Positions 12,907 to 34,796 of a stretch of 38,792 nt of DNA are shown here, one piece after another; the first letter of the stretch is position 1; every line of letters starts with the position of its first letter. Under the pieces are notes generated by a model. The model saw only the letters and a program-made list of their open reading frames with translations. It ran no database searches and was not told the origin of the DNA. Source of the stretch: Nitrospirota bacterium (GTDB taxonomy: Bacteria; Nitrospirota; Thermodesulfovibrionia; Thermodesulfovibrionales; JdFR-86); contig JARRLN010000007.1 of NCBI GenBank assembly GCA_037386965.1, positions 1-38,792 of the forward strand. Direction: 5' to 3'. A program made the translations under genes and the position numbers.

Positions 12907-14745
12907 ATGGCGCCCAAGCTGGGGCAAATGCTCATATCCACCAACCTCATTACCGAGGAGCAGTTGAAGCAGGCCCTCACCCTGCAGAAGAAGGAAGGGG
13001 GCCGCCTCGGCTCGAGCCTGGTGAAGCTGGGCTACGTCAACGAAGAGAAGCTGGTGGCGTTCCTGAGCAAGCAGTTCGGAGTGCCCGCCATCAATCTGGC
13101 CGACTACAAGATAGACCCTTCGGTGGTCAAGCTGGTCCCCTACGACATGGCCAGGAAATACACCATCATGCCCGTGGCCCGGGTCGGGGCCACCCTGACC
13201 GTCGCCATGACCGACCCCTCCAACGTCTTCGCCATCGACGACGTGAAGTTCCTGACCGGCTACAACGTGGAGGTGGCCGTCACCAGCGAGAGCGGCATCC
13301 AGGGCGCCATGGCCCAGTACTACGGGGCCGGGGCAGCCTCGGCCTCCCTCGAGGAGATGCAGAAAAAGGAGCAGGACCCCGAGGACGCCTCCAAGATTCT
13401 CTCGGCGCGGGACTACACCCTCAGCGACGACGACATTGATGCGGGGGCAATGGCGGGCAAGGGCTACGACGACGGGCCCATGGTGGACGTGGAGGACTTC
13501 GATAAGGTCGTCGGAAGCGCCCTGGACAATGTCCAGGCGGTGGAGGAGCAGGAGGAGTCCGAGGCCGTCCGCGAGGTGGAGGCCCCCATCGTCAAGCTCG
13601 TCAACGGCATATTCGTCAACGCCGTGAAGGCCGGGGCGAGCGACATCCACGTGGAGCCCTACGAGACGTCCCTCCGGGTGCGGTTCCGGGTGGACGGCGT
13701 CATGTACACGGTCATGAACCTCCCCACCAAGATAAAGGCCGCCCTGACCTCCAGGATAAAGATCATGGCCCGGCTGGACATCGCCGAGCGCCGCCTCCCC
13801 CAGGACGGAAGGATAAAGCTCAAGCTCGGCAAGAAAAGGGACATCGACTTCCGGGTCTCCACGCTCCCCACCCTTTTCGGGGAGAAGACCGTCCTGAGGC
13901 TCCTGGACAAATCCAACCTGGAGATAGACCTCACCAAGCTGGGGTTCGAGGAGAAGGCCCTGCAGCACTTCATGGGGTCCCTGGACAAGCCCTACGGGAT
14001 GATCCTGGTCACGGGGCCCACGGGCTCCGGAAAGACCACTACGCTGTACTCGGCCCTCTCCTACCTCAACAAGCCCGGCATAAACATCATGACCGCCGAG
14101 GACCCCGTGGAGTTCAACTTCCTCGGCATCAACCAGGTCCACGTGCGGGAGGACATAGGGCTGACCTTCGCGGCCGCCCTCCGGAGCTTCCTCAGGCAGG
14201 ACCCCGACGTCATCATGGTGGGCGAGATCCGGGACTTCGAGACGGCCGAGATAGCCATCAAGGCCGCCCTCACCGGCCACCTGGTGCTCTCCACCCTGCA
14301 CACCAACGACGCCCCGAGCACCATCAACAGGCTCCTGAACATGGGCATCGAGCCCTTCCTGGTCAGCTCCTCGGTCCTCGTCATCCTCGCGCAGCGGCTG
14401 GCGCGCCGCATCTGCCCCAAGTGCAAGGAGGAAGAACGGGTGCCGGCGCCGGCCCTGGTGAAGGTGGGCTTCTCCCCGGAGGAGGCCGAGGGCTTGACCG
14501 TGTACAAGGGAAACGGCTGCCCGTACTGCAACGGCTCGGGCTACAAGGGCCGGGTGGCCCTCTACGAGGTCATGCTCGTCAGCGACGAGATAAAGGACCT
14601 CGTCCTGGAGGGCGCATCCACCGAGGAGATAAAGCGCACGGCCGTAAAGGACGGCATGAAGACCCTGCGCATGTCGGGGCTGACCAAGGTCAAGGAGGGC
14701 GTCACCACGGTGGAGGAGGTCCTCCGCGTGAGCTTCGGAAACTGA
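12907..14745 (+). CDS. pilB: Type IV pilus assembly ATPase PilB with N-terminal MshEN domain
   Basis: This 612-residue cytoplasmic hexameric ATPase powers pilus extension. Its N-terminal MshEN domain has two 24-residue motifs starting at Lys4 and Arg33, 29 apart; the second (Arg33-Leu-Gly to Gln56) keeps the Arg, Gly, Leu and Gln of the consensus, so cyclic-di-GMP binding is predicted. A low-complexity acidic linker (about 145-225) precedes the catalytic domain with Walker A GPTGSGKTT (370-378), acidic box, Walker B and His box, and a four-Cys zinc site (CPKC and CPYC). The ATG at 12907 gives the family-typical MAPKLGQ start; it has no ribosome site but a promoter directly upstream. A longer TTG start at 12871 falls on the -35 box and is rejected. 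Confidence 0.95.
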   Translation: MAPKLGQMLISTNLITEEQLKQALTLQKKEGGRLGSSLVKLGYVNEEKLVAFLSKQFGVPAINLADYKIDPSVVKLVPYDMARKYTIMPVARVGATLTVAMTDPSNVFAIDDVKFLTGYNVEVAVTSESGIQGAMAQYYGAGAASASLEEMQKKEQDPEDASKILSARDYTLSDDDIDAGAMAGKGYDDGPMVDVEDFDKVVGSALDNVQAVEEQEESEAVREVEAPIVKLVNGIFVNAVKAGASDIHVEPYETSLRVRFRVDGVMYTVMNLPTKIKAALTSRIKIMARLDIAERRLPQDGRIKLKLGKKRDIDFRVSTLPTLFGEKTVLRLLDKSNLEIDLTKLGFEEKALQHFMGSLDKPYGMILVTGPTGSGKTTTLYSALSYLNKPGINIMTAEDPVEFNFLGINQVHVREDIGLTFAAALRSFLRQDPDVIMVGEIRDFETAEIAIKAALTGHLVLSTLHTNDAPSTINRLLNMGIEPFLVSSSVLVILAQRLARRICPKCKEEERVPAPALVKVGFSPEEAEGLTVYKGNGCPYCNGSGYKGRVALYEVMLVSDEIKDLVLEGASTEEIKRTAVKDGMKTLRMSGLTKVKEGVTTVEEVLRVSFGN

Positions 14746-31906: not shown

Positions 31907-33199
31907 TCAGGGGGAGATGCGGTAGTTCTTTATCTTGGTCCTGAGGGTGGTGCGGTTTATGCCCAGGGTGGCCGCGCTCTTGAGCTGGTTGCCCGAGGCT
32001 TCCTCCAGGACCAGCTCGATGAGGGACTTCTCCACCTCGTTCATCACCGTGGCATGCAGGCCCGCCCTGCGCAGTTTGGTCATCTCGCCTATGTATTTGC
32101 CGAGCTTGACCTGGAGGAACTCCTTGATGGAGCAGTGGGCGGCCACGTCTCCCAGGACGAAGTGCCTCTCCTCCACCAGCTCGTCGCTGGAAAGGAGACA
32201 GGCCTTCCGGATGGCGTTCTTCAGCTCCCCCACGTTTCCCGGCCAGGGATGGCGGGTGAGGTACTTCCTGGCTCCCTGGGCCAGGCGCTTCGGGCCGGTC
32301 TCGAAGACCTGCGCGCACTCCGTGAGGAACTGCTCGGCCAGGGGGACGATGTCCTCCACGCGTTCCCTCAGGGGCGGAAGCCTGAGCACCCTGCACGAGC
32401 TGGTACGGAGAGGGTCGTCGCCCTGGATGCCGTTTAACGAGCAGAGGACCCGCACGTCCAGGCGGCTCCCCGATGAGCCGGGCAGGGTCCGCTCCTTCAT
32501 GAAGGCACCCACGCTCCTGGCCCGTTCGGGGGCAAGACCGTCGAGGTTCTTGAGGAAGAGCGTGCCCCCTTCGGCGCTCACCGCCTTGCCGGGGGAGCCC
32601 TCGGTCCCGAAAAGGGCCGTCTCCAGGTCGCCGCCCGCACCCTCCACCGTGACGAAGGACCGCGTTCTGCGGCTGCTCATCCGGTGCATGACGCGGGCCA
32701 TGTGCTCGCGGCCCGTGCCCCTCTCGCCGGAGATGAGCACGGGGACGTCCCGCCGGGCCAGGCGCTCCACCTCCCTCAGGACCTTGCGCATGGCCGTGCC
32801 GCCGTAGAGGTCCACCGGCACGGCGGCCTCGTCCTGGCGCTTCTCCAGTTCGTCCCTGAGGGCCAGATAGCCGTGCGCGCTCCTGACGGCTGCGGCGAGC
32901 CGGTGGGTGTTCAGGGGCTTGACCAGGCAGAAATGCGCCCCCTCCTGCACGGCGGACTTGGCGCAGTCCTCCCGGGTGGTCACCAGCACGACGGCCTCGG
33001 GGTGGTAGGAGCGTATCTCCCGCGTGGCCCGGGCGACGTCGGAGACGTCCGCCAGGACGAGGTCGGGCCCCTGCATGGCCCTGAGCAGGGCGGGCAGGCG
33101 CTGCTTGACCGTAACGGCAACGCCCAGAGGCTCCAGGGTGCGGCGCGCCACGGCAACACTTGTCTGGTCCGAAGAGAGAAGGTAAAGGTGCCTTTCCAT
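31907..33199 (-). CDS. Degenerate NtrC-family regulator (receiver, crippled AAA+ domain, Fis-type HTH)
   Basis: The 430-residue protein has the NtrC order but key motifs are lost. The receiver has one acidic residue at the N-terminal site and an Asp in VLADVSD. The AAA+ domain has Walker A GERGTGRE, with Arg for the usual Lys; the GAFTGA region is replaced by GTEGSPGKAVSA; Walker B reads TLFLKN rather than TLFLDE. So ATP hydrolysis and sigma-54 activation are unlikely. The C-terminal HTH (KSAATLGINRTTLRTKIKNY) looks intact, suggesting a repressor or DNA-bound scaffold. Start ATG 33199 (MERHLYLLSSDQ) is the sensible one for a receiver; there is a TATAAT promoter 100 bp upstream. RNase E/G follows on the same strand. 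Confidence 0.85.
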   Translation of the reverse strand: MERHLYLLSSDQTSVAVARRTLEPLGVAVTVKQRLPALLRAMQGPDLVLADVSDVARATREIRSYHPEAVVLVTTREDCAKSAVQEGAHFCLVKPLNTHRLAAAVRSAHGYLALRDELEKRQDEAAVPVDLYGGTAMRKVLREVERLARRDVPVLISGERGTGREHMARVMHRMSSRRTRSFVTVEGAGGDLETALFGTEGSPGKAVSAEGGTLFLKNLDGLAPERARSVGAFMKERTLPGSSGSRLDVRVLCSLNGIQGDDPLRTSSCRVLRLPPLRERVEDIVPLAEQFLTECAQVFETGPKRLAQGARKYLTRHPWPGNVGELKNAIRKACLLSSDELVEERHFVLGDVAAHCSIKEFLQVKLGKYIGEMTKLRRAGLHATVMNEVEKSLIELVLEEASGNQLKSAATLGINRTTLRTKIKNYRISP

Positions 33200-33300
33200 G
33201 TCAGCGTAAAAAGTGTTCCGGCGAAAGAGAAGACAGCTGCCCGTGTATCGAAACTCCCCCACTACCCCCGGCGAGACGGTGACTCTCCCGGGAGGGCTTT

Positions 33301-33413: not shown

Positions 33414-33833
33414 TCAGGGGCGGCGCTCTTCGCCCGCCAGGCGGAGCCAGTAGGAGGCCACCACGCCCCAGATGCTGTTGTAAATGATGACGAAAAGCGG
33501 GGTCAGGGCTCCGAGGTCAAGGCCCGCCGTTCCCTTGCCCAGCTTCAGGGGAAACACCCAGAAGAGCATGCCCAGGGTGGGCCCGAACCCGTAGAGGACG
33601 CCCCGCCAGAAGGGCCGCTTCCGAAGAAGCGGTATCAGGAACAGAGCGCCCCATATGCCTCCCCACACCAGGCGGGGATAAAGCCACGGCACCGTAAGGG
33701 CGGGGGCCAGCGAGACTCCCAGGGCCTCGGGGAAGCCTATCCGGCCGAAAAACCAGACCGCCAATCCGTTTATAAGGCCGCCCAGGGCACCGGCGGAAAA
33801 GACGAGGGACATCTGAAGGGCTAACCGTCGCAT
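33414..33833 (-). CDS. Small integral membrane protein of unknown function (four helices)
   Basis: I do not recognise the family. The 139-residue product has about four hydrophobic segments: residues 8-30, 38-70 (broken by Pro and Arg), 78-98 and 108-132. Gly-rich turns (GALGGLING, WGGIWGALF, YGFGPTLGM) suggest tight helix packing. ATG 33833 is chosen for its GAGG ribosome site. It lies 83 bp after the MshEN-repeat gene and on the same strand; it may belong to the same transcript, so a link to cyclic-di-GMP or response-regulator signalling is possible but unproven. Confidence 0.7.
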   Translation of the reverse strand: MRRLALQMSLVFSAGALGGLINGLAVWFFGRIGFPEALGVSLAPALTVPWLYPRLVWGGIWGALFLIPLLRKRPFWRGVLYGFGPTLGMLFWVFPLKLGKGTAGLDLGALTPLFVIIYNSIWGVVASYWLRLAGEERRP

Positions 33834-33916: not shown

Positions 33917-34366
33917 TCAGGCGTGGTGCTCCCCTTCCAGCCTGAGCCTCTGAAACTGCACGAAGTTCTCCTCCATCTCCTCCTTGGTGAGCACGCCGAG
34001 GTTCACCAGGGCCTCGCCGAAGAGCACATAGCTCTCCTGCATCTCCTTGAGCAGGCTCTCCAGCCTCTCCAGGGATATGTAGCCGTGCTCCAGGGCCACC
34101 TGCCCGAACTTCCGGAAGTCCTCCTCCTGGTAAGTGAGGATGCGGGCCACGTCGGCCGTGGAGAGCCATCCCTTCTCCCGGGCCAGCTCGCCGATTCTGC
34201 GGTTGTGCTGCCTCTGCATCATCCGGGCGTTGAAGACGTCCTCCTCCGTGATGAGCCCTTTCATCCTCAGGAACTGCCCGAAGAGGAAGGAGCGCGGGAC
34301 CGGGGAATCCAGGGCCAGGATATCGGAGAGATAGTCCTCCTCCCGCCTTTCAAAAGCCCTATCCAC
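33917..34366 (-). CDS. Stand-alone protein of four tandem MshEN-type repeats
   Basis: The 149-residue soluble protein is nearly all repeats. Four units with G at residues 30, 59, 88 and 117 recur at exactly 29 residues, each reading x-(F/I)-G, four to six residues, G-(hydrophobic)-(I/L), then a helix; units 1 and 2 end with Gln at the 24th position (51 and 80). This is the repeat of the MshEN domain that binds cyclic di-GMP in MshE and PilB ATPases, but here without any ATPase. Unit 2 (Arg57-I-G to Gln80) best keeps the ligand-binding residues; the others have Phe in place of Leu and lack the Arg. The start lies eight bases inside the upstream response-regulator gene, so both are made together. 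Confidence 0.8.
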   Translation of the reverse strand: MDRAFERREEDYLSDILALDSPVPRSFLFGQFLRMKGLITEEDVFNARMMQRQHNRRIGELAREKGWLSTADVARILTYQEEDFRKFGQVALEHGYISLERLESLLKEMQESYVLFGEALVNLGVLTKEEMEENFVQFQRLRLEGEHHA

Positions 34367-34796
34367 GGGTCTCCTCCTTTCTCCGGACGAGCCTCTCCAG
34401 GAGGGACTTCAGCTCGTCCGTGTCGGAGGACTTCACCACGTATCCGTCGGAGGGAAGGTTCTTCATCTTGTCGGTATAGTCGAAGGCGGTAAGCATGATG
34501 ACCGGGATGGAGCCGTCCATGCCCTTCATCTGCTGAAGGAGCCGGATGCCGGTGGGGTTGACCGTGCTTCTGAGCCTGCCCCCCTGCACCATGGGCAGCA
34601 TGATGTCCAGGGTCACGGCGTCGGGCTTCTCGCTGGCGAAGAGCTCCAGGGCCTCCTGCCCGCTTGTGGCGGTTACCACGTCGTAGCCCTCGTCGGCGAG
34701 CTCCGCCTCGTAGAACATCAGGATGGGCGCCTCATCGTCCACCATGAGGACCTTGGGGGCCTGCCTCCGTCTTTTCGCGGCACCGTTGCCTCGCAT
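34359..34796 (-). CDS. CheY-like single-domain response regulator
   Basis: The 145-residue protein has a basic N-terminal tail (about 14 residues) then a receiver domain with Asp20-Asp21, phospho-acceptor Asp64 in VTLDIMLP, the MLTAF switch Thr103 and Lys122. An insertion of about 14 residues (QGGRLRSTVNPTG) follows the acceptor loop, where typical receivers have M-P-x-x-x-G. It has no output domain, so it acts by protein contact. The MshEN-repeat protein encoded in an overlapping frame is the obvious candidate partner. No histidine kinase is adjacent. The ATG is six bases after a TAGAAT hexamer and lacks a ribosome site. Confidence 0.88.
   Translation of the reverse strand: MRGNGAAKRRRQAPKVLMVDDEAPILMFYEAELADEGYDVVTATSGQEALELFASEKPDAVTLDIMLPMVQGGRLRSTVNPTGIRLLQQMKGMDGSIPVIMLTAFDYTDKMKNLPSDGYVVKSSDTDELKSLLERLVRRKEETRG

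Follow-up and report, generated by a model that had tools for sequence, protein, structure and literature searches.

The gene at positions 33,917 to 34,366 (minus strand) of the stretch of Nitrospirota DNA analysed here (38,792 nucleotides, hereafter the window) encodes a real, conserved and ordered protein of four MshE-type motifs. The reading I consider reasonably probable is that this protein is a small soluble c-di-GMP receptor with a single site, built from MshE-type motifs only and bearing two specialised flanking units. If so, it would define a new class of small soluble c-di-GMP receptor in Nitrospirota, easy to express and crystallise, and the MshE motif would act here as a repeat with specialised positions, not as a regulator of an ATPase. 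Receptors consisting only of the motif escape the Pfam MshEN model.

Four motifs in one small protein

The coding sequence (149 amino acids, GTG start) is supported by its open reading frame, an NCBIfam match and orthologues, and an AGGAGG ribosome-binding site lies six bases before the GTG (34,373-34,378, minus strand), within the 3' end of a response-regulator gene. Glycines at residues 30, 59, 88 and 117 mark four ungapped units spaced by exactly 29 residues, as originally predicted: when the protein is matched to itself with BLOSUM62, an offset of 29 scores +41, the next best offset scores -22, and none of 5,000 shuffles reached 41 at any offset. The units, all on the minus strand, are residues 28-51 (LFGQFLRMKGLITEEDVFNARMMQ; 34,214-34,285), 57-80 (RIGELAREKGWLSTADVARILTYQ; 34,127-34,198), 86-109 (KFGQVALEHGYISLERLESLLKEM; 34,040-34,111) and 115-138 (LFGEALVNLGVLTKEEMEENFVQF; 33,953-34,024). 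Before them stands an N-terminal extension (residues 1-25; 34,292-34,366, minus strand) with a predicted helix at residues 9-18, and a similar extension occurs in L054, from a genome (G004) of the same family.

The NCBIfam model NF053729.1, a 53-position c-di-GMP motif model covering one pair of motifs, matches the protein with an E-value of 1.6e-19 (69.4 bits; cut-off 38), and it also matches all 24 aligned family members (best 7.3e-31). PilB of the window matches this model too, through its canonical pair of motifs (12,916-13,074, plus strand; 73.3 bits), and its sequence bears out the claim that it shares the 29-residue spacing. The T2SSE ATPase domain is absent from the array protein, which places it outside the traffic ATPases (PilB/GspE) and agrees with the description of an MshE-type array free of any ATPase. 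Pfam PF05157 (MshEN) does not match the array protein, which lacks the C-terminal alpha/beta subdomain of a full MshEN domain. The original prediction had proposed this profile as a test, but its silence is uninformative and would mislead, because in the window's PilB the model spans only that subdomain (residues 69-154), C-terminal to the motif pair. Matches to FumaraseC_C and DUF4388 were weak and below cut-off; I read them as resemblance between helix hairpins, since fumarase helices appear in Foldseek too. A viral fold search returned no match.

Orthologues from 61 related genomes form a sharp set in which identity is 39-52% across some 120 residues. Most have a length of about 125-150 amino acids, and the frame of four times 29 residues is ungapped across them. 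The 57 loci were reduced to 46 members by removal of duplicates, the window protein included; open reading frames at these loci, often GC-rich, were called approximately. A scan of genome contigs with the single array sequence found no relatives, whereas an alignment-based scan did. In named genomes, orthologues were found in Nitrospirota, many labelled Thermodesulfovibrionales, and a single weak partial match came from a Gemmatimonadetes record. The family is thus widespread in Nitrospirota, although in a sample of the phylum the array protein is present only patchily.

With AlphaFold, the window protein was modelled from 24 sequences and a consensus member from 41 (pLDDT 83.0 and 84.8); the helices of the two models agree. 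Both predicted models contain the four-helix bundle expected of an MshEN-type fold, at about 1 A from PilF-GSPIIB. Foldseek matched them to crystal structures of c-di-GMP-bound PilF-GSPIIB and of MshE over 51-53 columns, mostly at 0.8-1.2 A, with probabilities up to 1.00. The E-values, at best 0.2, are poor owing to the short alignment of about 53 residues. The best stretch of the family profile against PilF GSPII-B (8pdk) is units 2-3 (8.1e-06). Foldseek gives 30% identity over 53 columns between the window model and 8pdk, with the aligned range not reported; in fixed register the identities are 30.2% for units 2-3, 28.3% for pair 1-2 and 34.0% for pair 3-4, so that the agreement of the Foldseek value with the count for units 2-3 is only suggestive that these are the units aligned.

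Predicted ligand positions of the central pair

The motif given in the text of PMC5013675 is RLGxx(L/V/I)(L/V/I)xxG(L/V/I)(L/V/I)xxxxLxxxLxxQ, in which, according to the same text, ligand is contacted by the amides of Gly3, the hydrophobic residues at positions 2, 17 and 21, and Gln24. An arginine at position 1, used as a criterion in the original prediction, is not required: PilF GSPII-B, with Lys and Leu at this position, has a higher affinity than MshE, at 6 nM (PMC11731258). I therefore called a half-site complete when it had Gly3, hydrophobic residues at 2, 17 and 21, Gln24, and Arg, Lys or Leu at position 1.

By this definition the half-site is complete in 34 of the 46 members for unit 2, in 40 for unit 3 and in none for units 1 and 4, consistent with the earlier suspicion that not all units need bind ligand. 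Both half-sites of pair 2-3 are complete in 30/46 (in the other 16 at least one central unit is incomplete), and neither pair 1-2 nor pair 3-4 is complete in any. Unit 1 has its Gly and Gln, and position 21, where a ligand-contacting Leu is expected, is Arg in 45 of the 46 members (Arg48 in the window copy); a Leu-to-Arg change there is among the differences of XpsE, which no longer binds (PMC5013675). Unit 4 has Phe or Tyr in place of Gln24 in every member, and usually an aromatic residue at position 1 too. Judged by these residues, the family is an ordered array of non-canonical, canonical, canonical and non-canonical units with one canonical site, since units 2 and 3 alone are complete while units 1 and 4 are altered in fixed ways.

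The window copy departs from this pattern at one position. Its unit 2 is complete, and the only shortfall of pair 2-3 is Gln24 of unit 3, which is Met109 where 42/46 members have Gln; L054, with the same N-terminal extension, has Ala. Thus the statement that only unit 2 keeps its Arg and Gln well holds for the window copy, but not for the family, where units 2 and 3 are both intact. In PilF GSPII-A both glutamines are needed to rebuild binding (PMC12002112), yet Q190E and Q218E variants of PilF-GSPIIB have been deposited as c-di-GMP-bound structures, according to their entry titles. I consider c-di-GMP binding at this predicted site likely for the family and uncertain, though not excluded, for the window copy, given Met109 on the one hand and the ligand-bound variants on the other; the site of the window organism is probably weaker.

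The alternative that survives best, although I regard it as unlikely, is that ligand binding has been lost and the fold is retained for protein-protein contacts, as a helical-repeat scaffold or adaptor. It would account for the fixed, non-canonical character of units 1 and 4, for the inclusion of residues outside the ligand set (Ala47, Arg48, Asn55 and Glu81) among the most conserved in the family, and for the missing Gln of the window copy. Degenerate MshEN domains are also known: the text of PMC5013675 describes XpsE, in which binding was lost and a change from Leu to Arg at position 21 is among several differences. However, most members keep all ligand-contacting positions of the central pair, which is hard to explain without selection for ligand, and the best solved match of that pair is a 6-nM binder.

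The response regulator and the gene neighbourhood

Upstream of the array gene lies a single-domain response regulator of 145 amino acids (34,359-34,796, minus strand; PF00072, 2.4e-18), and the two genes overlap by exactly the eight bases first noted (34,359-34,366). The regulator has its phospho-acceptor residues. In the beta3-alpha3 loop, after the phospho-acceptor strand, it carries 11 inserted residues (about GGRLRSTVNPT) that are absent from seven relatives. A shorter homologue is encoded elsewhere in the same genome (C108).

These features invite the idea that the array and receiver proteins form a dedicated pair integrating c-di-GMP and phosphorylation. Co-expression is likely, because the genes overlap and the ribosome-binding site of the array lies inside the regulator gene, and the regulator's phospho-acceptor residues and its insertion near the active site would fit such a role. 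Elsewhere, genes directly upstream of array paralogues encode NtrC-type regulators (L102, L107) or a histidine kinase (L105), an HDOD gene upstream of the array closes a run of receiver-containing genes at L070 and L072, and a relative has a four-unit array fused to CheX, with a homologue of that fusion in the window genome. However, at none of the other loci among the 57 surveyed (46 non-redundant) does a single-domain receiver gene overlap or adjoin the array, a count made by phmmer with three receiver queries, which very divergent receivers may escape. Of the 61 sampled genomes, 59 encode near homologues of the regulator, among them genomes that lack the array. Moreover, the window genome (2.5 Mb) has 62 receiver matches, and the three direct upstream receiver neighbours seen in 46 loci, against about one expected by chance (a rough estimate; P about 0.1), are not clearly above chance. 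I therefore consider a dedicated pair very unlikely.

A conserved partnership with phospho-signalling was thus not supported by the survey. With a receiver-only neighbour at 1 of 57 loci, a conserved operon of receiver and c-di-GMP adaptor is rejected, and the link to the response regulator, adjacent to the array in the window genome only, is a local feature. No conserved neighbourhood of any kind was found in the surveyed array loci, where the immediate upstream genes also encode epimerase, tRNA-synthetase-type and DNA-alkyltransferase-type proteins. Two genomes from the same family as the window have a HAD hydrolase-PilZ fusion gene (L051:4246-5265 and L062:6401-7408) upstream of the array gene, ending two bases before it or overlapping it, which puts a second c-di-GMP domain into what is probably the same operon.

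Downstream, 83 bases after the array gene, the small membrane protein that had been pointed out is indeed present, as a hydrophobic open reading frame of 139 amino acids (33,414-33,833, minus strand) without a family match. As a partner it is rejected: it was found in 3/21 genomes and does not track with the array, so it is probably not functionally tied to it. An NtrC-family activator (31,907-33,262, minus strand) has a receiver domain that scores 20.4 bits, under the Pfam cut-off, and is possibly degenerate.

A possible switch and known MshE-type proteins

In both AlphaFold models one continuous helix is formed by the second helix of unit 1 and the first of unit 2, although this is a ligand-free prediction and the long helix could be an artefact. 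The notion that units 1-2 and units 3-4 form independent bundles, each with one c-di-GMP, is implied by the duplicated module of the original prediction; it is the least probable of all and is rejected on the residue table of the 46 members: NF053729 does score units 1-2 of the window copy highest among its adjacent pairs (39.8 bits; units 2-3, 33.7 bits) and that pair has both Gln, but neither pair is complete in any member, the Arg of unit 1 and the aromatic residue of unit 4 vary hardly or not at all, and a single helix passes through the 1-2 linker in both models.

Under the preferred reading of a one-site receptor, the central pair would bind one c-di-GMP, by extension from published work on PilF and MshE, and units 1 and 4 may serve as modules for interaction or as latches. 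When PilF binds its ligand, the corresponding helix unwinds at its first turn (PMC11731258; PMC12002112). Because the helix unwound in PilF corresponds to the continuation of unit 1 in the models, binding of ligand could be linked to the placement of unit 1: speculatively, ligand at units 2-3 could interrupt the long helix, so that unit 1 swings and the protein changes what it binds. The partner probably differs between lineages, and in the window organism the array gene is probably co-expressed with the receiver-only response regulator. The complete scheme would make the array a c-di-GMP adaptor that is portable: ligand at the central pair would break the continuous helix of units 1 and 2 and free unit 1 for a lineage-specific partner (the receiver protein in the window organism; in others HAD-PilZ, HDOD or NtrC-type proteins). 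As it stands, this scheme seems to me unlikely.

The window genome has 10 GGDEF and 17 PilZ matches. Besides PilB, its MshE-motif proteins include two CheA, a four-unit protein whose C-terminus is CheX-related, a J-domain protein bearing a motif array, two DUF4388 proteins and two ATPase-less MshEN proteins, so that the array protein has company as a candidate c-di-GMP receptor in this genome.

Among known systems, MshE MshEN_N of Vibrio cholerae (5htl) and Thermus PilF GSPII-B (8pdk) share with the array the 24-residue motif, the 5-residue spacer and the four-helix bundle, array units 2-3 retain their ligand positions, and the predicted bundle superposes on them at about 1 A. Unlike them, the array has four motifs, not two, and lacks both the MshEN_C subdomain and the ATPase. 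Thermus PilF GSPII-C likewise has more than two motifs in a row (three in one domain), but as part of an ATPase (PMC11731258). NF053729, named 'cyclic di-GMP-binding domain-containing protein, MshE-related', matches the array, yet the ordered four-unit layout falls outside its 53 positions.

As early as 2016, the text of PMC5013675 reported MshEN motifs that are duplicated, in tandem as (MshEN_N)2, free of an ATPase, or fused to REC, CheA, CheX or HD-GYP. These resemble the array in being ATPase-free and duplicated; the array differs in having no fused output and in placing its canonical pair centrally, not as two separate pairs. The suggestion that the arrangement was little described thus fails for ATPase-free, duplicated or fused MshEN and stands for the ordered stand-alone array, which looks undescribed: the open-licence papers, with PMC5013675 taken apart from its supplementary tables, cover tandem and fused MshEN and gave no account of it. 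Nothing was found on MshE-type receptors in Nitrospirota in the open-licence papers.

Several other proteins of these genomes carry the motif in different settings. Two CheA kinases of the window genome (L080:248-2380 and L081:5651-7759) carry two MshE motifs as a pair, placed after the Hpt and before the dimerisation domain. Four-unit arrays joined to a CheX-type domain occur in the window genome (L007:844-1671) and at L083:1164-2042; the latter matches CheX, and the former, its homologue, is 33% identical over its length. In these proteins a c-di-GMP array would be joined to what may be a receiver phosphatase. The J-domain protein of the window genome (L075:506-1189, C20) has a C-terminal MshE motif array and a weak DnaJ match (2.2e-05, below cut-off). 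At L084:5356-6237 (genome G030) an array stands beside a cyclic-nucleotide-binding domain, possibly bringing two nucleotide signals into one chain, and at L074:5425-6393 (genome G017) the array follows a Cys-rich N-terminal segment (beginning CWEYRKCGRQLGG) that has no Pfam match.
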